A DNA stretch of 46,293 nucleotides from Pyrinomonadaceae bacterium (GTDB lineage: Bacteria > Acidobacteriota > Blastocatellia > Pyrinomonadales > Pyrinomonadaceae), in the NCBI GenBank assembly GCA_013696465.1, contig JACCYN010000261.1:1-46293 (forward strand). The letters run 5' to 3'. Below the pieces are notes generated by a model. It searched no databases. It was given only the letters and a program-made list of their open reading frames with translations, and was not told where the DNA came from. Shown here in pieces: positions 2,760-44,997 of the stretch. Position 1 is the stretch's first letter. Every line of letters starts with the position of its first letter. Both the position numbers and the translations under genes were made by a program.

Positions 2760-3683
2760 ATGACCCTCGCAGTTGCTGAAAACATTGTGGAGATCGTCGG
2801 GCACACGCCGATGCTTCGCCTCGCTAGATTCGCCCGCCCGCCGCTCGCCGACATCTACGCGAAGCTTGAATACCTGAATCCCGGCGGCTCCGTGAAAGAT
2901 CGCGCCGCACTGGGGATGATCCTTGAAGCCGAACGCGACGGTCGCCTTCGCCCCGGCGCGACCATCATCGAACCGACGGCCGGGAACACCGGCATCGGGC
3001 TTGCCCTCGTCGGCGTGGCGCGCGGTTACCGCGTGATCCTGTGCGTGCCCGAAGGCTACTCGCGCGAAAAGATGAAGGTGATGGAAGCCTTGGGCGGCGA
3101 GATCGAATACGTCTCGAAGGAGGCGGGGATGAAGGGCGCGATTGAGCGGGCGCGCGAGTTGTGCGATCAGATTCCTGACAGCTTCGTGCCGCAGCAGTTT
3201 GAGAATCCGGCGAATCCGTGTTACCACGAAGAGACGACGGCGAAAGAGATCATCGAGCAGATGGAAGGGCGCATTGACGCGGTGGTGATGGGCGCGGGCA
3301 CGGCTGGAACTTTTACGGGCGTGGCGCGCGCGGTGAAAAAGATTAACCCGCAAGCGTTCTGTGTGCTCGTCGAACCGGAGGGATCGATCTTCGGCGGCGG
3401 AAAGCCGGGATCGCACAAGGTTGAAGGCATCGGGCAGTCGCAATTCATTCCACCCGTCTACGATTGTCGCGTGGTGGACGAAGTGATGATGATCACCGAC
3501 GCGGAAGCTTATGCAGTGGTGCGCAAACTCGCGCAGACGGAAGGCGTTTTGTGCGGCGGCTCTTCAGGAGCGGCCGCGGCCGGGGCGCGCCGCATCGCCG
3601 AACGTCTCGGCGCGGGCAAGCGCGTCGTCACGCTTCTGCCCGACGGCGCCGAACGCTACATGAGTCAGGGAATTTTTGATTAG
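2760..3683 (+). CDS. cysK: cysteine synthase / cystathionine beta-synthase-type PLP enzyme
   Basis: A 307-residue fold-type II PLP enzyme. GGSVKDRAA carries the PLP lysine (K46), EPTAGNTGIGL is the substrate loop, GAGTAGTFTG is the phosphate-binding glycine loop, and GGSSGAAAAGA lies near the C-terminus. These are O-acetylserine sulfhydrylase / CBS family marks. It makes cysteine from O-acetylserine and sulfide, or cystathionine from a serine derivative and homocysteine. There is no CBS regulatory domain and no N-terminal heme region. The gene directly downstream encodes a cystathionine gamma-synthase/lyase, so the pair may do reverse transsulfuration (MccA/MccB style) rather than plain cysteine synthesis. 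Sequence alone does not separate the two. It is read divergently from kdsB. Confidence 0.9.
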   Translation: MTLAVAENIVEIVGHTPMLRLARFARPPLADIYAKLEYLNPGGSVKDRAALGMILEAERDGRLRPGATIIEPTAGNTGIGLALVGVARGYRVILCVPEGYSREKMKVMEALGGEIEYVSKEAGMKGAIERARELCDQIPDSFVPQQFENPANPCYHEETTAKEIIEQMEGRIDAVVMGAGTAGTFTGVARAVKKINPQAFCVLVEPEGSIFGGGKPGSHKVEGIGQSQFIPPVYDCRVVDEVMMITDAEAYAVVRKLAQTEGVLCGGSSGAAAAGARRIAERLGAGKRVVTLLPDGAERYMSQGIFD

Positions 3684-3757
3684 TAAGCTGTGAGCAGTAA
3701 GCAGTGAAGACAAACCTGCTTTTCCTGCTGCTCACAGCTTACAGCCTACTGCTCGCT
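3682..3757. repeat. heptad-type inverted repeat between the two PLP enzyme genes
   Basis: The left arm reads as heptads TAAGCTG TGAGCAG TAAGCAG. The right arm is the reverse complement type (CTGCTCA CAGCTTA CAGCCTA CTGCTCG). GTAAGCTGTGAGC pairs perfectly with GCTCACAGCTTAC. It begins at the stop codon of the upstream gene and ends about 7 bases before the downstream ATG, leaving no room for a Shine-Dalgarno sequence. It is one of about a dozen such elements in the window. Confidence 0.85.
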
Positions 3758-3764
3758 AACACTT

Positions 3765-4904
3765 ATGGGTTTTTCAACAAAAGCGATTCACGCAGGAAAT
3801 GAACCTGACCCGACGACGGGCGCGGTCACAGTTCCGATTTATCAAACCTCGACTTACGCGCAAGAGGGACTCGGCAAACATAAAGGCTTCGAGTATGCGC
3901 GGACGCAGAACCCGACGCGGCTTGCCTTAGAGCGCAACATCGCCGCGCTTGAAGGAGCGAAGTTCGGCTACGCTTTCGCGTCGGGAATGGCGGCGATTGA
4001 TGCCATCTTGCGTTTGGTGCACGCAGGCGATCACGTTATCGTCTCCGATAACACTTACGGCGGCACGTTCCGCCTTTTCACGCGCATACTTTCAAATTAC
4101 GGAATTGAGTTTAGCTTTGTTGACACTTCGGACGCTTCAAATGTTGAAGCGGCGATCAAAGACAACACGCGGATGGTGTTTCTAGAAACGCCGACGAACC
4201 CCGTGATGATCATCTCGGATTTGCAAGCCGTCTCCGACGTGGCTCACGCGCGCGGCGTCCGCGTCGTCTGCGACAACACGTTTATGTCGCCTTACCTGCA
4301 ACGCCCGATGGAGTTCGGCGTTGACATCGTCGTGCATTCGACGACGAAGTATTTGAACGGCCATTCGGACGGCGTGGGCGGCGTCGCCGTTCTTAACGAT
4401 GAGAAAGATGCCGAGTGGCTTGGCTTTGTGCAAAACGGCGCGGGCGCGATCCTCTCGCCGTTCGATTCGTGGCTTGTGTTGCGCGGCACAAAGACGCTTG
4501 CCGTGCGCATGGAGCAACACGACAAGTCGGGGCGCGCAATCGCGGCGTTTCTGGAAGAGCATCCGAAGGTCGAGAAGATTTACTATCCGGGTTCGCTCTC
4601 ACACCGCCAACACGATCTCGCCAAGCGGCAGCAAAAAGGTTTCGGCGGCATGGTCGCTTTCGATGTCGGCTCGCTTGAGCGGGCGCGCACAGTTCTTGAA
4701 GCGGTGCGATTATGCACGCTGGCCGAAAGCTTAGGCGGGGTGGAGACTTTGATTTCTCATCCGGCGACGATGACGCACGCCTCAGTGCTCGTGGAGACGC
4801 GCCAGCGCATCGGCATCACTGACGGACTTGTGCGCATCTCCGTCGGGCTTGAGGACACGGAGGACATTATCGCCGACCTCGATCAAGCGTTAGATAAGGC
4901 ATAG
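3765..4904 (+). CDS. cystathionine gamma-synthase / gamma-lyase family PLP enzyme
   Basis: A 379-residue member of the Cys/Met-metabolism PLP family (fold type I), full length for the family. It starts STKAIHAGNEPDPTTGAV and has YARTQNPTR. The PLP lysine is K195 in HSTTKYLNGHSD, and VETLISHPATMTH near the C-terminus contacts substrate. Family members either join O-succinyl/acetyl-homoserine to cysteine (MetB) or split cystathionine to cysteine, ammonia and 2-oxobutyrate (CGL/MccB). The pairing with a CysK/CBS-like gene 81 bases upstream favours transsulfuration, in which direction is open. No Shine-Dalgarno is visible; the ATG follows the end of an inverted repeat. Confidence 0.92.
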   Translation: MGFSTKAIHAGNEPDPTTGAVTVPIYQTSTYAQEGLGKHKGFEYARTQNPTRLALERNIAALEGAKFGYAFASGMAAIDAILRLVHAGDHVIVSDNTYGGTFRLFTRILSNYGIEFSFVDTSDASNVEAAIKDNTRMVFLETPTNPVMIISDLQAVSDVAHARGVRVVCDNTFMSPYLQRPMEFGVDIVVHSTTKYLNGHSDGVGGVAVLNDEKDAEWLGFVQNGAGAILSPFDSWLVLRGTKTLAVRMEQHDKSGRAIAAFLEEHPKVEKIYYPGSLSHRQHDLAKRQQKGFGGMVAFDVGSLERARTVLEAVRLCTLAESLGGVETLISHPATMTHASVLVETRQRIGITDGLVRISVGLEDTEDIIADLDQALDKA

Positions 4905-4910
4905 TCGAAA

Positions 4911-4988
4911 AGTAATGGCTGATGCATGATGAGCAATGAGCGAAAAACTTGTTTTTACTCGTCACGCATGACTCATCACTCATCACTC
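4911..4988. repeat. heptad-type inverted repeat before the PP2C gene
   Basis: The left arm has GTAATGG CTGATGC ATGATGAGCA ATGAGCG. The right arm has ACTCGTC ACGCATG ACTCATC ACTCATC. The loop contains AAAAACTTGTTTTT. The right arm is followed by a run of T and then the ATG of the phosphatase gene, with no Shine-Dalgarno. Read as protein, the arm creates a false N-terminal extension (FLLVTHDSSLIT) in the ORF track. Confidence 0.8.
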
Positions 4989-4996
4989 TTTTTTTT

Positions 4997-5941
4997 ATGA
5001 TCGTAGATTTATATGCAAAGACGGACATCGGGCGTGTTCGTCAAGGCAATGAAGATAACTTGCTCGTGCTTGACTTGTCGTCGGCGCGTTCGTGGGCGGG
5101 TACAGACGGGGTGCGCCCGCCGGAAGAGTTGTGCCGCGTTAAAGTCGGAGGCGAAGGCATCGTTTTAGTTGTTTCGGACGGCATGGGCGGCGCGCTCGCG
5201 GGCGACGTAGCGAGCCGCATGGCGGTCGAGACGGTGCGCGATCTGCTCGTCGAAAGCAACGCGGACGAAGCAAACAAAAGAGGTAAAAGTAACGGCGAAG
5301 ATGCGACGCTCATTGATCGTCTGCGTGATGCCACCGTCTACGCTAACCTTGCAATTCACCATCGCGGGCAGGAAGACGCGCGCTATGCCGGGATGGGCGC
5401 GACGTTTACGGGCGCGGCGATCACGAATGGCACGCTCGATCTTCTGCAAGTCGGCGACAGCCGCGCTTACGTCGTTCGCGGCTCCGAGATAAAGCAGGCG
5501 ACGAAAGATCAATCGCTTGTGCAGCAACTCGTTGATGTCGGGCAGATCAGCGAAGAGGAGGCGGAGACGCATATGTTTCGCAACGTGATCCTCCAAGCCC
5601 TCGGCGCGCAAGGCGAACTCGCGCCCGTAACGGTGCGCGTCCGCGTTAGTCAAGGCGATATGCTGCTTCTATGCAGCGACGGTTTATCCGGCAAACTACG
5701 CGCTGAAGATATGCAGATAATTCTTGAAGCGTCTGGCGGCGACATGATTAAAGCCTGCGACAAACTCATTGACGAAGCGAATTCTCGCGGCGGCGAAGAC
5801 AACATCACCGTCCTGCTCGCGCGCTTCACCGGCGACGATATCCCCGCGCCCGACTCCGATCCGATCACGGTCGAACTTCCCTACATGGAAGACGACACAA
5901 CTTTTAGCGGGGACGAAGAAAATGCCACCGCACAGTTATAA
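4997..5941 (+). CDS. PP2C-family Ser/Thr protein phosphatase
   Basis: A 314-residue metal-dependent phosphatase (PPM/PP2C) of the compact bacterial type, with no added domain. The motifs run in order: KTDIGRVRQGNEDN with the first metal Asp region, VSDGMGGALAGDVAS, GMGATFTGA, VGDSRAYV, LLLCSDGLSG and GGEDNITVLLA. All metal-ligand aspartates expected from these motifs are present. The last 35 residues are acidic. It would dephosphorylate Ser/Thr-phosphorylated proteins, and the window also encodes a Ser/Thr kinase at 17.9-19.7 kb, a possible opposing partner though not adjacent. The start at 4997 is preferred to 4949 because the first 16 track residues are translated from the inverted repeat. 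tsaD follows after 80 bases. Confidence 0.93.
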   Translation: MIVDLYAKTDIGRVRQGNEDNLLVLDLSSARSWAGTDGVRPPEELCRVKVGGEGIVLVVSDGMGGALAGDVASRMAVETVRDLLVESNADEANKRGKSNGEDATLIDRLRDATVYANLAIHHRGQEDARYAGMGATFTGAAITNGTLDLLQVGDSRAYVVRGSEIKQATKDQSLVQQLVDVGQISEEEAETHMFRNVILQALGAQGELAPVTVRVRVSQGDMLLLCSDGLSGKLRAEDMQIILEASGGDMIKACDKLIDEANSRGGEDNITVLLARFTGDDIPAPDSDPITVELPYMEDDTTFSGDEENATAQL

Positions 5942-8973: not shown

Positions 8974-8985
8974 TTATTAACAGAA

Positions 8986-9060
8986 GAAGTAACAAGCGAC
9001 GGGTCACAAGATAAAAAGTTTGATTCTCACTTGCCGCCCGTCACTCGTCTTTGTTCACTA
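8986..9060. repeat. heptad-type inverted repeat between dnaK and dnaJ
   Basis: On the plus strand the left arm reads AGTAACA AGCGACG GGTCACA AGAT. The right arm, reverse complemented, reads AGTGAAC AAAGACG AGTGACG GGCGGCA AGTGAGA. The arms are less well matched than in other members, but the 7-base period and the placement just upstream of a start codon are the same. Confidence 0.6.
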
Positions 9061-9062
9061 CA

Positions 9063-10919
9063 TTATGTGTCGCTTGATTCGGATGATTGATTTGACGATC
9101 TGCCGTTCGGTTCAGATGGTTGATTTAACATGAGCGTTGTAAGCTGCGCACCAAGTTGTTCGACCGCAGCGGTCGCCCCCCGTATCTCATCAGGGTCGTC
9201 GGATTTTGTTTTCGCTTCCGCTTCCTGCAGCGTACCGCTCGCTGCTTGCCTTTCTTCGCTCGACAGTAAGTTGCCAAACTCCGTGAGCGTGCGTCGCGTG
9301 TTACGCATAAGGCTCTCCAGCTTGTTGCGCAGGCCTACCACCGTTTTAGTTTGACGGTCGGTGTCTGCGGCGTCCGCCGCTTCGAGCATCAAGCGTTCGA
9401 TTTCATCCGGCGACAAACCTGAACTCGGCGTCACGCGCAACTCCTGCTGGCGTCCCGTGTTCTTCTCCTGCGCCGACACAGAAAGAATGCCGCTTGCGTC
9501 AACCTCAAACGTCAACTCGATCTGCGCCGCGCCGCGCGGCCCGGGCGGAATGCCAACAAGCTCAAACTTGCCCAACGAACGATTGCCTTCGGCCACTTCG
9601 CGCTCGCCCTGAAGGATGTGCACCTCAACCGATGATTGATTATCAACGACCGTCGTAAACGTCAGCGTGTTGCGCAAAGGGATCGTTGAATTGCGGTCAA
9701 TGACTTTTGTGAACAACCCGCCGCGCGTCTCGACGCCGAGGCTCAAGGGCAATATGTCTAAGAGCACAATGTCTTTCACGTCGTTCGTCAACACGCCGCC
9801 TTGAATCGCCGCGCCCATCGCCACCACTTCGTCGGGGTTGATCTCCGCCGAAGGCTCGCGCCCGAAGATTTCCTGCACGGTGCGATGGATGATGGGCGAG
9901 CGCGTCTGACCGCCGACGAGCAACACTTTGTCAATGTCGCCCCCCCTGAGTTTCGCGTCCCAGAGAGCTTTCTGGCACGGCTCGATGGTTTGCTCGACGA
10001 GATCGCCGACGAGGTTTTCAAAGCCGTCGCGCGTCAAAGTCTTGATAAAGTGTTTCGGCCCCGAAGCGTCGGCGGCGATGAAGGGCAGGTTGATGTTCGT
10101 TTCCGTGAGCGACGAGAGTTCGCATTTGGCGCGTTCGGCCGCTTCTTTGAGGCGCTGTAAGGCAAGCCGGTCTTGGCGCAAATCAATGTCGGTTTCGTTG
10201 CGAAACTCGTCGATCATCCAGAGGGCGATGCGCTCGTCAAAATCTTCGCCACCGAGAGAAGTGTTGCCGGAAGTTGAGAGAACCTCGAAAACGCCGTCGT
10301 TGATTTCAAGCACGGAAACGTCGAACGTGCCGCCGCCGAGATCGTAGACGATGACGCGCTCGGATTCGCTGCGTCCGAGGCCGTAGGCTAAGGCGGCGGC
10401 GGTCGGCTCGTTGATGATGCGGTCAATCTTGAGTCCGGCGATCTTTCCGGCGTCCTTCGTCGCCTGTCGTTGCGTGTCGTCGAAATACGCGGGCACGGTG
10501 ACGATGGCTTCGGTGACGGACTCGCCGAGAAAATCTTCGGCCGCTGCCTTCAATCGTTGCAGGACAATGCCGGAGATTTCCTGCGGACTGTAGACGCGAT
10601 CCTGCACGCAGAGGCGCGCGTCGCCGTTCTCCGATGCGACGATCTCAAAGGCGGACGTTTCCCGCGCACGCTCAACTTCGGGCGAATCGTATTTACGACC
10701 GATGAGACGTTTGACGGCGTAGACGGTGTTCGCCGCGTTCGTCACCGCCTGCCGCTTGGCCATCTGCCCGACGAGGCGCTCGCCTTTATCGGTGAAGCCG
10801 ACGACGGAAGGCGTCGTGCGCCCGCCTTCTTTGTTCGGGACGATCTGCGTTGCGCCGCCTTCCAAAACCGCGACGCAGCAGTTCGTCGTTCCTAAATCAA
10901 TTCCGATTATTTTACCCAT
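9063..10919 (-). CDS. dnaK: chaperone DnaK (Hsp70)
   Basis: ATP-dependent Hsp70 chaperone. From the ATG at 10919 the protein begins MGKIIGIDLGTTNCCVAVLE, the invariant Hsp70 start. The track's earlier start at 10946 is a TTG giving nine non-family residues. The nucleotide-binding domain shows VPAYFDDTQRQATKDAG, NEPTAAALAYG, VYDLGGGTFDVS and LLVGGQTRSP. The substrate domain shows LLDILPLSLGVETRGG. At 618 residues it is slightly shorter than E. coli DnaK, with a short Ser/Asn-rich tail instead of an EEVKD-type end. It is the third gene of the hrcA operon and follows grpE after about 70 bases. Confidence 0.98.
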   Translation of the reverse strand: MGKIIGIDLGTTNCCVAVLEGGATQIVPNKEGGRTTPSVVGFTDKGERLVGQMAKRQAVTNAANTVYAVKRLIGRKYDSPEVERARETSAFEIVASENGDARLCVQDRVYSPQEISGIVLQRLKAAAEDFLGESVTEAIVTVPAYFDDTQRQATKDAGKIAGLKIDRIINEPTAAALAYGLGRSESERVIVYDLGGGTFDVSVLEINDGVFEVLSTSGNTSLGGEDFDERIALWMIDEFRNETDIDLRQDRLALQRLKEAAERAKCELSSLTETNINLPFIAADASGPKHFIKTLTRDGFENLVGDLVEQTIEPCQKALWDAKLRGGDIDKVLLVGGQTRSPIIHRTVQEIFGREPSAEINPDEVVAMGAAIQGGVLTNDVKDIVLLDILPLSLGVETRGGLFTKVIDRNSTIPLRNTLTFTTVVDNQSSVEVHILQGEREVAEGNRSLGKFELVGIPPGPRGAAQIELTFEVDASGILSVSAQEKNTGRQQELRVTPSSGLSPDEIERLMLEAADAADTDRQTKTVVGLRNKLESLMRNTRRTLTEFGNLLSSEERQAASGTLQEAEAKTKSDDPDEIRGATAAVEQLGAQLTTLMLNQPSEPNGRSSNQSSESSDT

Positions 10920-14759: not shown

Positions 14760-15323
14760 ATGGCAATTCCAGCAACTCAGATCAGGCGCGGCATGGTGAT
14801 CGTTTTCGAGGGGCAGCCCTGCAAGGTGGTTGAATTCCGGCATCACACGCCGGGAAATTTGCGCGCGATGGTGCAAACCAAACTTCGCAACGTGCGCACC
14901 GGCGCGTCCTTCGAGCATCGCTTTCGCTCCGCCGACACGGTGGACAAAGCTCAGATGGAGCAGCACGAGATGGAGTATCTCTACTCGGACGGCTCAAGCC
15001 ACCACTTTATGAACACGGAAAATTATGAGCAAACCGCTTTGTCGGAAGAAGATTTAGGCGACATGGCGCAGTGGCTCACGCCGGGGCTTCGTATTCAAGC
15101 CGAATTCTACGAAGGCGCGCCCATCGGCATCGAACTTCCCGCTTCGCTTGAATTCACCGTGACGCGCACCGAGCCGACGATCAAAAGCGCGACCGTCTCG
15201 AACGTCAACAAACCGGCCACACTTGAGAACGGCGTGACGATCCAAGTGCCGCCCTTCGTCAACGAAGGCGACCGCATCCGCGTCTCCCCCGTCGAAAGTC
15301 GCTACATCGAACGAGCGAAATAA
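14760..15323 (+). CDS. efp: elongation factor P
   Basis: EF-P binds between the ribosomal P and E sites and rescues stalling at polyproline runs. The 187-residue protein has the usual three-domain length. It has [38 protein letters not shown] and the C-terminal ending [18 protein letters not shown]. In the domain I loop the sequence is [15 protein letters not shown], so the position aligned with E. coli K34 is Asn (N33). It is therefore neither the lysine nor the arginine used for beta-lysylation or rhamnosylation. No modification genes (epmA/B/C, earP) are in the window. waaA follows across an inverted repeat. Confidence 0.97.
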
Positions 15324-15328
15324 CATAA

Positions 15329-15403
15329 GTAATGAGTGATGAGTAATGAGCGATGAGAAAAAGATGTTGTTCTTACTCGTCACTCATTACTCATCACTCA
15401 TAA
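15329..15403. repeat. heptad-type inverted repeat between efp and waaA (clearest member)
   Basis: The left arm reads TAATGAG TGATGAG TAATGAG CGATGAG. The right arm reads TACTCGT CACTCAT TACTCAT CACTCAT. The arms match at 24 of 26 aligned bases around a loop of about 18 bases. It fills the spacer completely, starting 5 bases after the efp stop codon and ending 2 bases before the waaA ATG, where no Shine-Dalgarno exists. Confidence 0.9.
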
Positions 15404-15405
15404 CT

Positions 15406-16746
15406 ATGTATCTCTTCTACAGCCTTCTGCTTACGCTTGGCTTCCTTCTGCTGCTTCCGCGTTTCCTTTACGATGCGTTGCGGCACGGCAAGTATGCGGC
15501 GGGTTTTCGCCAGCGTTTAGGTGAACTGCCGCAGTTTGACGGGCGCGGGGAAGGACAGATCATCTGGTTGCACTGCGTCTCGGTCGGCGAAACGCAAGGG
15601 GCACGCAGCTTCGCGGAGACGCTTATGAAGCGTTACCCTTCGCACAAAATCGTCGTCTCCACCACCACGCTCACCGGGCAGAGAGTTGCGCGTGATGTCT
15701 TCAAGGAAGTGGCTGCGCTTGTCTTTTATTTTCCTTTCGATTGGGCATGGACGGTGCGACGCGCGCTCGACCGTATCGCTCCATCACTTGTTTTGGTGAT
15801 GGAGACGGAACTGTGGCCACATTTTCTTCGTCAATGCCGGAGTCGCGGCGTTCCAGTCGCAGTGGTCAATGGGCGCATCTCCGAAAAATCGTTTCGCCGC
15901 TACGCGCTCGTCAAGTTTTTTATGCGCAGGGTTTTGAACGACGTAACGCTCGCCGTCATGCAGGCCGAGACGGACGCCGCGCGCATCGAAGCGCTCGGAC
16001 TTCCCCCCGCACGCATCAAGGTTTCGGGCAATTTGAAGTTCGACGCGCAACTTGATAGTGGCGGACACGCTTTACCCGACGAGCTTTCGGCGCGCTTCAA
16101 TTTCAAAGATAAACAACGTCCTCTCATTGTCGCGGCCAGCACGCACGCGCCGGAAGAAAGAATTTTATTAGAAGCGTTTCGTAAAATTCAACTTCAACTT
16201 CGTGCGAACGAATCGAATTTGCTTGAACCCCGATTGCTCGTCGCCCCGCGTCACCCCGAACGCTTCAGTGAAGTCGCAACGCTGATTCAAGCTTCAAATT
16301 TCTCATGGACGCGCCGCACGTATCCGGCATCGCCCAGAGATGCCGATTGCGAAACTATTTTACTCGACACCATCGGTGAACTGCCGCACGTTTACTCGCT
16401 TGCCACGATTGTCTTCGTGGGCGGCAGCCTCGCGCCGTACGGCGGGCACAACATCCTCGAACCGGCCGCCGCCGGAGTCCCCATCGTGACGGGCGCGCAC
16501 ACGCACAACTTCGCTTCCGTTACAAAGACTTTTCTTCAGCGCGAAGCGTTGCTGCAACTGCCCGCAGTCGGAGATGAACAAGCTCCTGACCTGTTAGCGC
16601 GCGTTCTCATAGATTTACTCCAAGATACGGACAAACGCTGTCGCCTCGGCGCAAACGCTTTCCGCGCGCTTGAAGATAATCGCGGCGCATCGAACCGCAC
16701 GCTCGAATTCTTAAAGCCGCTTTTCGAGCAACGAGAAATGCCCTAA
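15406..16746 (+). CDS. waaA: 3-deoxy-D-manno-octulosonic acid transferase
   Basis: WaaA (KdtA) adds KDO from CMP-KDO to lipid IVA at the inner membrane, a GT-B enzyme. From the ATG at 15406 there is an N-terminal membrane anchor (SLLLTLGFLLLLPRFLYD) and then RLGELPQFDGRG. HCVSVGETQGARSF carries the catalytic Glu region, followed by VLVMETELWPHFL and the C-terminal GGHNILEPAAAGVPIVTG with HTHNF. Length is 446, slightly above E. coli's 425. The track start at 15346 translates the inverted repeat (FLLVTHYSSLIT) and is rejected. It is followed by lpxK, and kdsB at 1.8 kb supplies its donor. Confidence 0.95.
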   Translation: MYLFYSLLLTLGFLLLLPRFLYDALRHGKYAAGFRQRLGELPQFDGRGEGQIIWLHCVSVGETQGARSFAETLMKRYPSHKIVVSTTTLTGQRVARDVFKEVAALVFYFPFDWAWTVRRALDRIAPSLVLVMETELWPHFLRQCRSRGVPVAVVNGRISEKSFRRYALVKFFMRRVLNDVTLAVMQAETDAARIEALGLPPARIKVSGNLKFDAQLDSGGHALPDELSARFNFKDKQRPLIVAASTHAPEERILLEAFRKIQLQLRANESNLLEPRLLVAPRHPERFSEVATLIQASNFSWTRRTYPASPRDADCETILLDTIGELPHVYSLATIVFVGGSLAPYGGHNILEPAAAGVPIVTGAHTHNFASVTKTFLQREALLQLPAVGDEQAPDLLARVLIDLLQDTDKRCRLGANAFRALEDNRGASNRTLEFLKPLFEQREMP

Positions 16747-28148: not shown

Positions 28149-28156
28149 AAGCAAAG

Positions 28157-28279
28157 TATGAAGTAGGAGGGATGAAGTCGGAAGTTGGAACAAAGCTAAA
28201 AGCTTTCACTTAAGATTTCAAATCGTAGATTCACGCCTTTAAGCGTCCCTACACTTCATCTGTTCCTACTTCGTCCTTT
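28157..28279. repeat. heptad-type inverted repeat between prfA and the histidine phosphatase gene
   Basis: The left arm carries GAAGTAGGAGGGATGAAGTCGGAAGTTGGAAC-type sequence (GAAGTNG heptads). The right arm, reverse complemented, has GACGAAGTAGGAACAGATGAAGTG. The loop is long (about 55 bases). The right arm ends 5 bases before the next ATG, with no Shine-Dalgarno. Confidence 0.7.
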
Positions 28280-35009: not shown

Positions 35010-36062
35010 TCAAATCGTAATTTCGCTTGACTGCGACAAACTTTGTGCGCTCCCGACTTCCGCGTTTATCTCGTCAAGCTTTGCGGCGACCGAACGGATG
35101 AGTTCGCGCACGCCTTCATTCGTCGCTGACGAAATGGCATGAAAAGGTTTACCGTCCTCCTCCGCCCGCCTTCGCAAACTATTCAGTCGCTCCGGCTCGT
35201 CGAGCGCGTCAATTTTTGTCGCCACCACGATCTGCGGTCGAGTTGCCAATTCCGCGTCGTAAGCTTCCAACTCGCGGTTGATAATTTCGTAATCGCTTAC
35301 GGGGTCGCGCCCCTGTGCGGAGGAAACGTCAACAAGATGGAGCAGCAACTTCGTGCGTTCGACGTGACGCAAGAATTTATCTCCGAGTCCCGCGCCCTTG
35401 TGCGCGCCCTCGATGAGTCCGGGAATGTCGGCGACGACGAACGTGCGGAAGTCGCCTAAATCCACGACACCCAAGTTTGGCTCAAGCGGCGTCAACGGGT
35501 TATCGGCGATCTTCGGTTTGGCGGCCGAGATCGTCGAAATCAATGTTGACTTTCCGGCATTCGGGAAACCGACGAGAGCGACATCGGCGAGCAATTTCAG
35601 TTCAAGTTGCAACTCGCGCTCTTCGCCCGCGCTGCCCTGCTGGTGATAGCGCGGGGCGCGATTCGTCGAAGTCGTAAAATGAGAATTGCCGAATCCGCCG
35701 CGCCCGCCGCGTGCCGCCAGCCACTGCATTCCGTCTTGCGACAGATCGCAGAAGAGATCGCCCGTTTCAGCGTCGAACACCTGTGTGCCAAGTGGCACGC
35801 GCACAACCGTGTCTTCACCTTCGCGCCCCGAACGGTTCGCGCCTTCGCCGTGACGACCGCGCTCCGCCGTGTGCTCCGGGTTGTAGCGAAGATGCAAGAG
35901 CGTGTTAAGCGATTGATCAGCTTCAAGCCACACATCACCGCCGCGCCCGCCGTCACCCCCGCTGGGGCCGCCGCGCGGCACAAACTTTTCACGGCGGAAA
36001 GCCGTCACGCCATTGCCGCCGTGTCCGCCGCGTACTTGAATTTTCGCTCGATCAATAAACAA
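35010..36062 (-). CDS. obgE: GTPase ObgE/CgtA
   Basis: Obg GTPase, involved in 50S assembly and stress control. The 350-residue protein has the Gly-rich Obg fold ([34 protein letters not shown]), then the GTPase domain with G1 [11 protein letters not shown]3 [16 protein letters not shown] and G4 TKID. The C-terminal OCT domain is short or absent. The start is TTG at 36062 (then [12 protein letters not shown]), supported by the family N-terminus; no ATG lies upstream in frame. It follows rpmA in the usual rplU-rpmA-obgE order but is separated by a terminator and an inverted repeat. Confidence 0.96.
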
Positions 36063-36079
36063 AGATTTTAGTTGTGAAA

Positions 36080-36142
36080 CCGTCAGCGTTCAGCTATTTG
36101 AACTGTTCTTTGTTTGGGCTGAATGCCGACGGCTGAACGCTT
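36080..36142. repeat. heptad-type inverted repeat upstream of obgE
   Basis: The left arm reads CGTCAGC GTTCAGC. The right arm reads GGCTGAA TGCCGAC GGCTGAA CGCTTAA. GCGTTCAGC pairs perfectly with GCTGAACGC. It lies between the rpmA terminator and the obgE TTG start, which has no Shine-Dalgarno. Confidence 0.75.
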
Positions 36143-36153
36143 AAAATATAACA

Positions 36154-40008: not shown

Positions 40009-40014
40009 GATTGG

Positions 40015-40119
40015 GATTTCTGATTCTTGATTTGCGATTTTTGATTGATCGCGTTGCGAGATTGAATTAACAACCAGAGGTTTTCAAATCGCAAATCGGC
40101 AATCAAAAATCCGAGATTT
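40015..40119. repeat. AT-rich heptad-type inverted repeat between rpoA and rplQ
   Basis: The left arm reads GATTTCT GATTCTT GATTTGC GATTTTT GATTGAT. The right arm has CAAATCG CAAATCG GCAATCA AAAATCC. It occupies nearly the whole 113-base spacer. It shares its GATTTGC/GATTTTT units with the repeats at 42020, 43003 and 44908. Confidence 0.82.
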
Positions 40120-41269: not shown

Positions 41270-41911
41270 CTACTTACTGTAAAGCTCGACGATTAGTTGT
41301 TCGTTGATCGAGCGATCAATATCATCGCGCGTCGGAAGGCTCGCCACACGCACGCTCATGTCGGCGTCCTCGACGGGCGCGATCCAGCTTGGGCGTCCGC
41401 GACCGGCCGCAGTCGCCCACGCGCCTTCGACGTGCGCGTTGCTGCGGCTTCCCTCGCGGATGGTAACCGTGTCGCCGATTTTTACTTGGAAAGAAGGAAT
41501 ATCAACTTTGCGATCATTGACCGCAACGTGCCCGTGGTTGACGAGCTGGCGCGCTTGACGGCGCGAGGTGGCGAACCCGCCGCGATACACCGCGTTATCA
41601 AGGCGACGCTCTAAGAGCGCGAGCAAATTTTCGCCGGTGATGCCCTTTTGACGCGCGGCGCGCTCGAAGTAGTTGCGAAACTGCCCTTCGAGCACAAAGT
41701 AGATACGCTTCACCTTCTGCTTTTCGCGCAACTGCTGACCGTAGCCAACGAGGGCTTTGCCGCGCCGCATCGAGTTTCCGTGTTGACCGGGCGGCTGCGT
41801 GCCGCGTTTTTCAATCGGACATGAGGGCTTGTAACAACGGTCGCCCTTCAAAAATAACTTTGCACCTTCACGGCGGCACAGACGGCACACCGCTTCTCTA
41901 TACCTAGCCAA
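41270..41911 (-). CDS. rpsD: 30S ribosomal protein S4
   Basis: 213 residues. The N-terminus keeps a four-cysteine zinc site ([18 protein letters not shown]...C), the C+ form. Then come [54 protein letters not shown] (S4 RNA-binding domain) and the end [13 protein letters not shown]4 starts 30S assembly at the 5' domain of 16S rRNA. The start codon is TTG at 41911, supported by GGAGG eight bases before it and by the family N-terminus (ARYR). Confidence 0.98.
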
Positions 41912-42019
41912 GTTGTTGCCTCCAGTTTAACTTCTTGAGTTGAACGGAAAAGTTTACAAGCCGGAACACGCAAAGCCTGAAAGCGCGCCCAAGCCCTTCA
42001 TCCTTTAGGCCGATGAATA

Positions 42020-42117
42020 AATTTTAGATTTGCGATTGCTGATCTTTGATTTAACAATTAAAAGGTTAAATCAAAGTCACGACTTTCGTTTCGATCAAAA
42101 ATCTAAAATCAAAGATG
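42020..42117. repeat. AT-rich heptad-type inverted repeat between rpsK and rpsD
   Basis: The left arm reads GATTTGC GATTGCT GATCTTT GATTTAA. The right arm has GATCAAA AATCTAA AATCAAA GATG. TTTTAGATTT pairs with AAATCTAAAA. It begins right after the rpsK stop codon (minus strand) and leaves about 100 bases to rpsD. Confidence 0.78.
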
Positions 42118-42119
42118 TT

Positions 42120-42521
42120 TCAGACTCTGCGACGCTTCGGTGGACGGCATCCGTTGTGCGGGATCGGCGTCGTATCTCTGATCGAAACGATGCGAATGCC
42201 CGCACTGCTGATCGCGCGAACCGCCGATTCACGGCCGCCGCCGGGCCCCTTAACGCGCACTTCCGCTTGGTGCATCCCCGCGTCTTTCGCTTTGTTCGCC
42301 GCTTCATATGCCGCCTGCTGCGCCGCGAACGGAGTTCCTTTACGCGAACCGCGAAATCCACGCGCGCCCGACGATGACTGCGCGATCAGATTGCCCTCCA
42401 AGTCAGTGATTGACACGAGCGTGTTGTTAAACGACGCCGCGATATGCACGATCCCGACCGGGATATTTTTCTTCTCTTTCTTACGAAAGACCTTCTTCTT
42501 ACCGGTTGTTGCTTTAGCCAT
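42120..42521 (-). CDS. rpsK: 30S ribosomal protein S11
   Basis: 133 residues. After a Lys-rich N-terminus: [61 protein letters not shown] and the end [18 protein letters not shown], which is universal in S11. It forms the 30S platform. It lies between rpsM and rpsD. No Shine-Dalgarno is visible before its ATG, where an inverted repeat ends. Confidence 0.98.
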
Positions 42522-42530
42522 AATTGAAAC

Positions 42531-42598
42531 GATGAACGCGGAAGGATGAACGCAGAACTGTTTTCACTTTATCGTTCCGCGTTCATCCTTCATACTTT
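42531..42598. repeat. inverted repeat between rpsM and rpsK
   Basis: The left arm has GATGAACGCGGAAGGATGAACGCAGAAC. The right arm, reverse complemented, has GAAGGATGAACGCGGAAC. GGATGAACGC occurs on both arms, and twice in tandem-like form on the left. It fills the spacer between the two ribosomal genes and ends 9 bases from the rpsK ATG. Confidence 0.78.
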
Positions 42599-43002: not shown

Positions 43003-43086
43003 CCAGATTTTCGATTTTTAGTCTCCGACACGAAAGCGCAACTTCAAAATCACGGAGCGACTAAATCAAAAATCGCAAATCCAAAA
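43003..43086. repeat. AT-rich inverted repeat between rpmJ and rpsM
   Basis: The left arm is GATTTTCGATTTTTAGTC. The right arm is GACTAAATCAAAAATCGCAAATC. Most of the two arms pair. It is the same GATTTGC/GATTTTT family as at 40015 and 44908. Confidence 0.75.
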
Positions 43087-44907: not shown

Positions 44908-44997
44908 ATTTTGATTTTAGATTTGCGATTTTTGCTTTAACAGAATCTGCGATCTCAAATATGAAATTCAGAGCGCAAATCAAAAATCGCAAATCTT
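44908..44997. repeat. AT-rich heptad-type inverted repeat between secY and adk
   Basis: The left arm reads TTTTGAT TTTAGAT TTGCGAT TTTTGCT. The right arm has GCGCAAATCAAAAATCGCAAATC. It fills the spacer between the two genes to within a few bases on each side. Confidence 0.82.

Follow-up and report, generated by a model that had tools for sequence, protein, structure and literature searches.

Heptad hairpins at the stop codons of Pyrinomonadaceae operon junctions and the Shine-Dalgarno-less starts beside them

Operon junctions of Pyrinomonadaceae, those of ribosomal-protein genes included, recurrently hold hairpins that are built of 7-nt units (heptads) and placed where the upstream gene has its stop codon. 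Such hairpins are present in the window, that is, the whole stretch of 46,293 nucleotides analysed here (contig JACCYN010000261.1 of assembly GCA_013696465.1, a Pyrinomonadaceae bacterium). The original prediction for this stretch had noted that they often abut start codons lacking a Shine-Dalgarno (SD) sequence, and had proposed that they act in translation start, coupling or transcript processing, or have simply replaced the leader by insertion. Based on the results given here, the hairpin is probably a stop-anchored intercistronic insert, resembling the repetitive extragenic palindromic (REP) elements and independent of a transposase, which passively excludes the SD in an SD-poor lineage. 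It is anchored at the stop codon and enriched in operons, the spacing it leaves is that of hairpin-free relatives, its relation to SDs depends on distance, it is restricted to one clade, and its sequence turns over at fixed positions. A hint about translation is thereby turned into a cleaner statement about operon junctions, where the 7-nt unit and the pairing of the arms persist without sequence conservation, visible selection on the sense-strand RNA or a Y1 transposase; how they do so is now testable. SD-less starts beside such repeats should not be taken as a new initiation mechanism.

The source assembly comprises 3.29 Mb in 392 contigs, one of which (C70) is the window. By its RpoA, it groups with metagenome-assembled genomes of Pyrinomonadaceae/Blastocatellia (Acidobacteriota). 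The own-genome sample consists of 1.12 Mb in 121 stretches, the window included; about 20 of the sampled contigs were picked for ATGAGTG heptads, so that the hairpin density in the sample is inflated. The comparison sets were the rpoA cluster on 80 named Acidobacteriota contigs (52 family genomes among them), the locus of a pyridoxal phosphate (PLP) enzyme gene and a PP2C gene in family genomes, and a single replicate genome (G060), of which 400 kb were used. Genes were called by a home-made order-5 model, which is blind to SDs; some starts were misplaced (rplQ, rpsD), and the window was corrected by hand. The gene calls of G060 (75% coding) have too many gaps for distances to be measured or SDs to be counted. 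A strong SD was defined by an anti-SD duplex energy E ≤ -6 kcal/mol and a weaker, SD-like site by E ≤ -4, with the anti-SD sequence assumed to be canonical; the 16S 3' end was not found in the genomes examined.

The lag-7 periodicity of the hairpins is not a matter of chance. In the own genome, a lag-7 self-identity of at least 0.55 is reached by 68 of the 327 intergenic inverted repeats, and none of the other lags between 4 and 12 gives more than 7. Tandem arrays number 80 at lag 7 versus at most 15 at other lags, and 340 versus at most 33 in the relatives. An inverted partner arm is present for 71/80 of the own-genome arrays and for 301/340 of those in the relatives. The partnerless remainder amounts to 9/80 and 39/340, several of the latter being distant from genes owing to poor pooled gene calls, and lone heptad arrays as leaders were rejected on these counts. 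Strict criteria yield 84 hairpins in the own genome, which belong to several heptad families, such as AGTGATG, GTAAGCA, GATTTGC, AACGATG/AACGCGG, AAGGCAAAAGTAAA, AGTCAGG and others.

It is the upstream stop codon that sets the placement of the hairpins; the downstream start does not. In 73 co-directional spacers of the own genome, the hairpin lies at a median distance of 3 nt from the stop and of 17 nt from the start; 85% are no more than 15 nt from the stop, and 42% overlap it. Where there are more than 30 nt of slack, 19 of 29 hairpins sit at the stop and 2 of 29 at the start. For the rpoA cluster of the 52 family genomes, the distance to the stop ranges from -17 to 14 nt (5-95%), and that to the start reaches 113 nt. 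In addition, hairpins occur in 55 of 454 co-directional, operon-like junctions of up to 200 nt, compared with 7 of 181 longer ones (p=0.001) and 6 of 156 convergent stops (p=0.002); divergent spacers hold just 3 hairpins in 82. Thus the hairpins do often abut starts, as had been noted, but the start is not the anchor: they abut starts because they are stop-anchored and operon spacers are short.

Then, could the hairpins serve the upstream gene? A REP-like element no more than 15 nt from the stop might slow terminating ribosomes or shield the mRNA from 3' exonucleases, and the share of 85% in that range would agree with such a role. According to Liang (2015), as cited in PMC12306157, ribosomes are stalled by E. 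coli REPs that lie no more than 15 nt from a stop, which was proposed for 260 of 496. However, this role predicts hairpins at convergent stops, where they are three times rarer, the sense-strand G-U bias is absent (see below) and the sequence is unconserved, which makes it quite unlikely. That the hairpins are intrinsic terminators or attenuators inside operons is highly improbable, although the stems are strong and a T8 run stands behind the PP2C stem. Convergent stops, where terminators belong, have fewer hairpins, and 7 or more T among the 11 nt behind the stem were found in 12/77 hairpins versus 13/132 other inverted repeats; intrinsic terminators were rejected for this want of U-tract enrichment.

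The hairpins of the window are listed below with strand, paired positions, self-identity at lag 7, fold z, where available, and flanking genes; the fold z ranges from -1.6 (PP2C, degenerate) to -11.2 (waaA).

3683..3742, + strand: PLP hairpin, GTAAGCA/GTGAGCA; 15/15 paired, lag-7 0.75, z -4.1; between the stop of the 2760 gene (distance -1) and the PLP-enzyme start 3765 (distance 22).
4903..4987, + strand: PP2C hairpin, AGTGATG/ATGAGTG family; arms 4903-4936 and 4955-4987, 24/33 paired, lag-7 identity 0.60; RNA fold -24.9 kcal/mol, z -1.6, i.e. a degenerate member; between the PLP-enzyme stop (4902-4904, overlapped) and start 4997, 9 nt before the ATG; T8 run after the stem.
8980..9068, - strand: dnaJ hairpin, degenerate; 22/27 paired, lag-7 0.44, under the strict threshold; between the dnaK stop (9063) and dnaJ start 8973.
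15317..15414, + strand: waaA hairpin, AGTGATG/AGTAATG; 37/42 paired, -48.3 kcal/mol, z -11.2; in the junction of EF-P (stop 15323) and waaA (Kdo transferase; start 15406), genes by Pfam.
28153..28279, + strand: His-phosphatase hairpin; 22/26 paired, lag-7 0.51; between the stop of a peptide-chain-release-factor gene (28148; distance 4) and start 28285 (distance 5), genes by Pfam.
36065..36147, - strand: obgE hairpin, weaker; 22/30 paired, lag-7 0.50.
40014..40112, - strand: rplQ hairpin, GATTTTT/GATTTGC; 23/27 paired, lag-7 0.70, z -4.1; between the rpoA stop (distance 9) and rplQ start 40008 (distance 5).
42014..42122, - strand: rpsK-rpsD hairpin; 23/30 paired; at the rpsK stop (42120; distance -3).
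42528..42590, - strand: rpsK hairpin, AACGATG/AACGCGG; 20/23 paired, lag-7 0.66, z -4.8; between the rpsM stop and rpsK start 42521.
43006..43081, - strand: rpsM hairpin; 13/14 paired, lag-7 0.79; between the stop of an rpmJ-like open reading frame and rpsM start 42987, with 18 nt free before the ATG.
44919..44996, - strand: adk hairpin; 19/20 paired, lag-7 0.73, z -3.7; between the secY stop (44999; distance 2) and adk start 44901 (distance 17).

Nine genes of the window had been named as hairpin-near and SD-less (3765 PLP enzyme, 4997 PP2C, waaA, 28285 phosphatase, dnaJ, obgE, rplQ, rpsK and adk). Their anti-SD duplex energies of -2.9 to +3.7 kcal/mol agree, i.e. there is no SD, and each has a hairpin upstream; those of dnaJ and obgE are weaker than the other seven. 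The placing of the PP2C hairpin at 4911-4999 was about right. The rpsM gene, named as the exception, does have an SD in the gap behind its hairpin (-6.0). SDs were confirmed for rpsD, rplU, tatA and rpmE among the genes elsewhere, and rpmA has one as well; rpoA and hrcA lack one as had been said, and so do map, dnaK and grpE. For rpsD (41270-41911, - strand), the TTG start at 41911 is 102 nt from the hairpin, and the strong SD CTGGAGG is kept (-9.3).

SD-less starts are the norm in this genome, where a strong SD precedes 25% of ATG starts versus 18% of shuffled leaders. The original prediction would lead one to expect fewer SDs genome-wide beside hairpins. For strong SDs, no such difference was found in the own-genome sample (10/47 hairpin-near starts versus 33/138 matched controls, which are hairpin-free co-directional spacers of 40-150 nt; p=0.84). 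There is a difference in mean duplex energy (p=8e-6), which comes from the low G content of the start-proximal arm. Among unambiguous starts, 1/18 hairpin-near ones have E ≤ -6 versus 28% of the controls (p=0.047), and 1/18 have E ≤ -4 versus 40% (p=0.004). Strong SDs are found at 2 of 23 starts if the hairpin ends within 9 nt and at 9 of 27 if it ends at least 10 nt away (p=0.046). Note that the comparison was run on several data cuts, so that the marginal p values should be read as mere indications. The expectation is thus refuted for strong SDs in matched spacers, but not for the hairpins that abut starts most closely; a deficit, modest though real, shows for the latter, for unambiguous starts and family-wide.

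Across the family, the hairpins are specific to Pyrinomonadaceae-type Blastocatellia: they were found in 109 of 314 rpoA-cluster spacers of such genomes and in 2 of 172 of other Acidobacteriota. In P. methylaliphatogenes, no hairpin is seen in the rpoA cluster. The rpsM-rpsK, rpsK-rpsD, rpoA-rplQ, secY-adk and PLP-PP2C junctions hold hairpins in many genomes with differing heptads, the relatives having GTTTTCA, GTTCCAA, GTTGTCA, AGTAAGC, GAGAGTG, GGATAAA and others at the shared junctions. The mean similarity of hairpins at the same locus is 0.16-0.25, and falls to 0.16, compared with 0.14 for unrelated hairpins. That is, the position at the stop codon is kept while the heptads change between genera. 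When the hairpin is subtracted, the residual spacing equals the spacer of hairpin-free relatives: 12.5 nt versus 5-24 in short hairpin-free spacers for rplQ, 11 versus 2-26 for adk, 8 versus 6-21 for rpsK, and -10 versus mostly -4 for map. SDs follow the available room. SD-like sites precede rplQ in 7/8 short hairpin-free spacers, 2/20 hairpin spacers and 6/21 long hairpin-free ones, so that lengthening of the spacer, whether a hairpin is recognisable or not, accompanies SD loss there. Long hairpin-free spacers are mostly SD-less for rpoA too, with SD-like sites in 8/37. For rpsD, the SD is kept in 19/22 cases with a distant hairpin and in 18/20 without a hairpin.

The pairing of the arms was examined through their mismatches. 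In the sense strand, the ratio of G-U to A-C mismatches is 81:83 in the own genome, 107:106 in the relatives and 54:57 in the replicate. A selected mRNA stem should tolerate more G-U; since G-U equals A-C, the pairing looks DNA-level, and selected mRNA structure was rejected, in a comparison that included no positive control of proven RNA structure. The non-heptad repeats taken as a control are uninformative (41:37). We infer that the pairing is upheld by a process at the DNA level, such as slippage or template switching between the arms. The evidence for copying between arms is weak: identity is 0.83 in register and 0.72 after a slide by 7, but the best register gives 0.81 after heptad-order shuffling versus 0.84.

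The events could then be pictured as follows. Heptad hairpins would enter tight stop/start junctions of operons, anchored at the upstream stop. The spacer would then be nearly all hairpin, and its G-poor 3' arm would lie where the gene that follows should have its SD, leaving no SD possible; with at least 10 nt between arm and start, the SD could stay. With SDs at only about one start in four, the lineage may tolerate such a loss. What ties hairpins to SD-less starts would thus be passive exclusion and not an initiation device, and insertion would have preceded SD loss. Of the roles first proposed, replacement of the leader by insertion is borne out by the stop-sited hairpins, the residual spacing equal to that of hairpin-free relatives, and the SDs that persist given room. 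For an active role in translation start or coupling no positive evidence was found, strand-specific G-U tolerance being absent and long hairpin-free spacers mostly SD-less.

Alternatively, the hairpin could be a sequence-free, position-conserved operon element of 7-nt units, retained at core-operon junctions across the family although its letters are replaced from genus to genus, whose looping out couples termination to SD-less re-initiation across the insert; this we consider rather unlikely. As an account of the present data, coupling by loop-out would mean that the folded hairpin brings the stop to within about 10-20 nt of the start, that the terminating ribosome re-initiates without an SD, and that the arms are free to vary if paired. 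The position is operon-specific, the base of the hairpin adjoins both stop and start, the residual spacing matches that of tightly coupled hairpin-free relatives, and sequence turns over while pairing is kept, all of which would fit; with 42% overlapping the stop, the 5' arm would also be partly covered by the ribosome as it terminates. However, the equality of G-U and A-C in three data sets is unexpected for a selected mRNA structure, an equal residual spacing is expected from plain insertion too, and SDs are kept more often where room exists. Coupling by loop-out is accordingly an unlikely account.

The two arms differ in composition. The 5' arm has more G than C in 78 of the 84 own-genome hairpins, and in 82 versus 19 in the relatives (e.g., window 3683-3742 and 15317-15414). 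Per arm, stop triplets number 3.0 in the 5' arm versus 0.57 in the 3' arm, and ATG 1.0 versus 0.12. This polarity is identical viewed from either strand, so the direction of transcription alone is no explanation. The heptads, the strand symmetry and the arm polarity are all reproduced in G060. A G-poor, ATG-poor 3' arm might serve as a ribosome-loading leader (S1-type or unstructured) for SD-independent initiation, and a few partnerless arrays of this kind do stand just before starts (L105, L144, L220, L221, L230 and L233); a parallel proposal has been made for TAACTGA repeats (PMC4679880). However, most arrays are paired, which would hide the leader, hairpins in convergent spacers without an adjoining start likewise have a G-rich 5' arm, and starts in the own genome are in general not G-poor. 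Such an initiation element is very unlikely.

Several points weigh against passive exclusion by a stop-anchored insert. The arm polarity (78/84) is left unexplained by it, and tolerance alone does not account for hairpins being three times as frequent at operon junctions as at convergent stops. The obgE hairpin is an exception to stop anchoring, since it adjoins the TTG start at 36062 and lies 80 nt from the rpmA stop. In the single genome of the same genus, the PLP-PP2C spacer is free of heptad hairpins, so that the order of events was not directly seen. Family-wide, SD-like sites at hairpin-near starts fall short even of those in long spacers of the same genes that have no hairpin: starts with E ≤ -4 number 9 versus 18.6 expected (z 3.6, gene-stratified) and those with E ≤ -6 number 7 versus 11.3 (z 2.05), both uncorrected for shared ancestry. 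With the hairpin folded out, the recovery of SDs is slightly above chance (0.37 vs. 0.31±0.03).

As to mobility, the Y1 transposase (PF01797) of the REP-associated tyrosine transposase (RAYT) type was not found in the own genome, which is 93% complete, nor in G007, G011, G035, G040, G051 and G055, which bear hairpins in their PLP/PP2C spacers. Transposition of the RAYT/REP kind was therefore rejected. The copies of Y1_Tnp range from 0 to 25 across the family genomes G000-G059, and the inspected Y1-free ones mostly carry PLP/PP2C hairpins; a negative association between Y1_Tnp number and heptad hairpins is possible.

Among known systems, E. coli REPs and bacterial interspersed mosaic elements are likewise dispersed palindromes in transcribed spacers, often near stop codons (85% of 73 within 15 nt here). 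Unlike REP/RAYT, the present hairpins have no conserved palindrome (e.g., a GTAG/CGTC tag), their arms are built of heptads, they are rarer at convergent stops, and the own genome has no Y1. Heptad arrays are also present in cyanobacteria, a different phylum, and heptanucleotide repeats reportedly occur in the stem-loop of a Nostoc tRNA-Leu intron; we know of no stop anchoring or operon enrichment of the cyanobacterial arrays. They show 7-nt indels between Cyanothece strains (PMC4679880). In marine Beggiatoaceae, TAACTGA repeats adjoin starts, SDs occur in about 10% of repeat regions versus 25% genome-wide, and a translational role was proposed, yet untested (MacGregor, 2015; PMC4679880). The likeness lies in tandem 7-nt units in intergenic DNA next to starts and in very similar SD numbers. 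However, TAACTGA is one fixed heptamer in direct repeats near the start in an unrelated lineage, whereas Pyrinomonadaceae have many heptads per genome, inverted arms that form a hairpin, anchoring at the stop, and heptads that change between genera. No description of this variable-heptad, hairpin-forming, stop-anchored form was found in the open-access papers searched, for this lineage or otherwise. Bacteroidetes and Cyanobacteria have non-SD initiation, a low SD frequency and pyrimidines just before the start (PMC3160421, PMC3155529). The Pyrinomonadaceae genome is similar in its few SDs and T-rich -2/-1 positions, but their non-SD initiation is a genome-wide habit with no link to hairpins. 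Taken together, the called starts of the own genome show an enrichment of T at positions -2 (0.36) and -1 (0.34) and of A from -8 to -4, which resembles the non-SD context of Cyanobacteria.

In some relatives, only 3'-arm-type heptads (e.g., CACCATTCGCCATTTACTATTCACC) stand directly before the ATG near the PLP gene, the partner arm being absent (L220, L221, L230, L233). Such lone heptads occur where a promoter-like TTGACA...TACTAT or another leader stands instead of an operon junction. In G060, about 17 of the 49 heptad hairpins of the 400 kb lie within about 25 kb containing rpoA (C5, ~100-125 kb; L239-L240), which is presumably the ribosomal-protein region.
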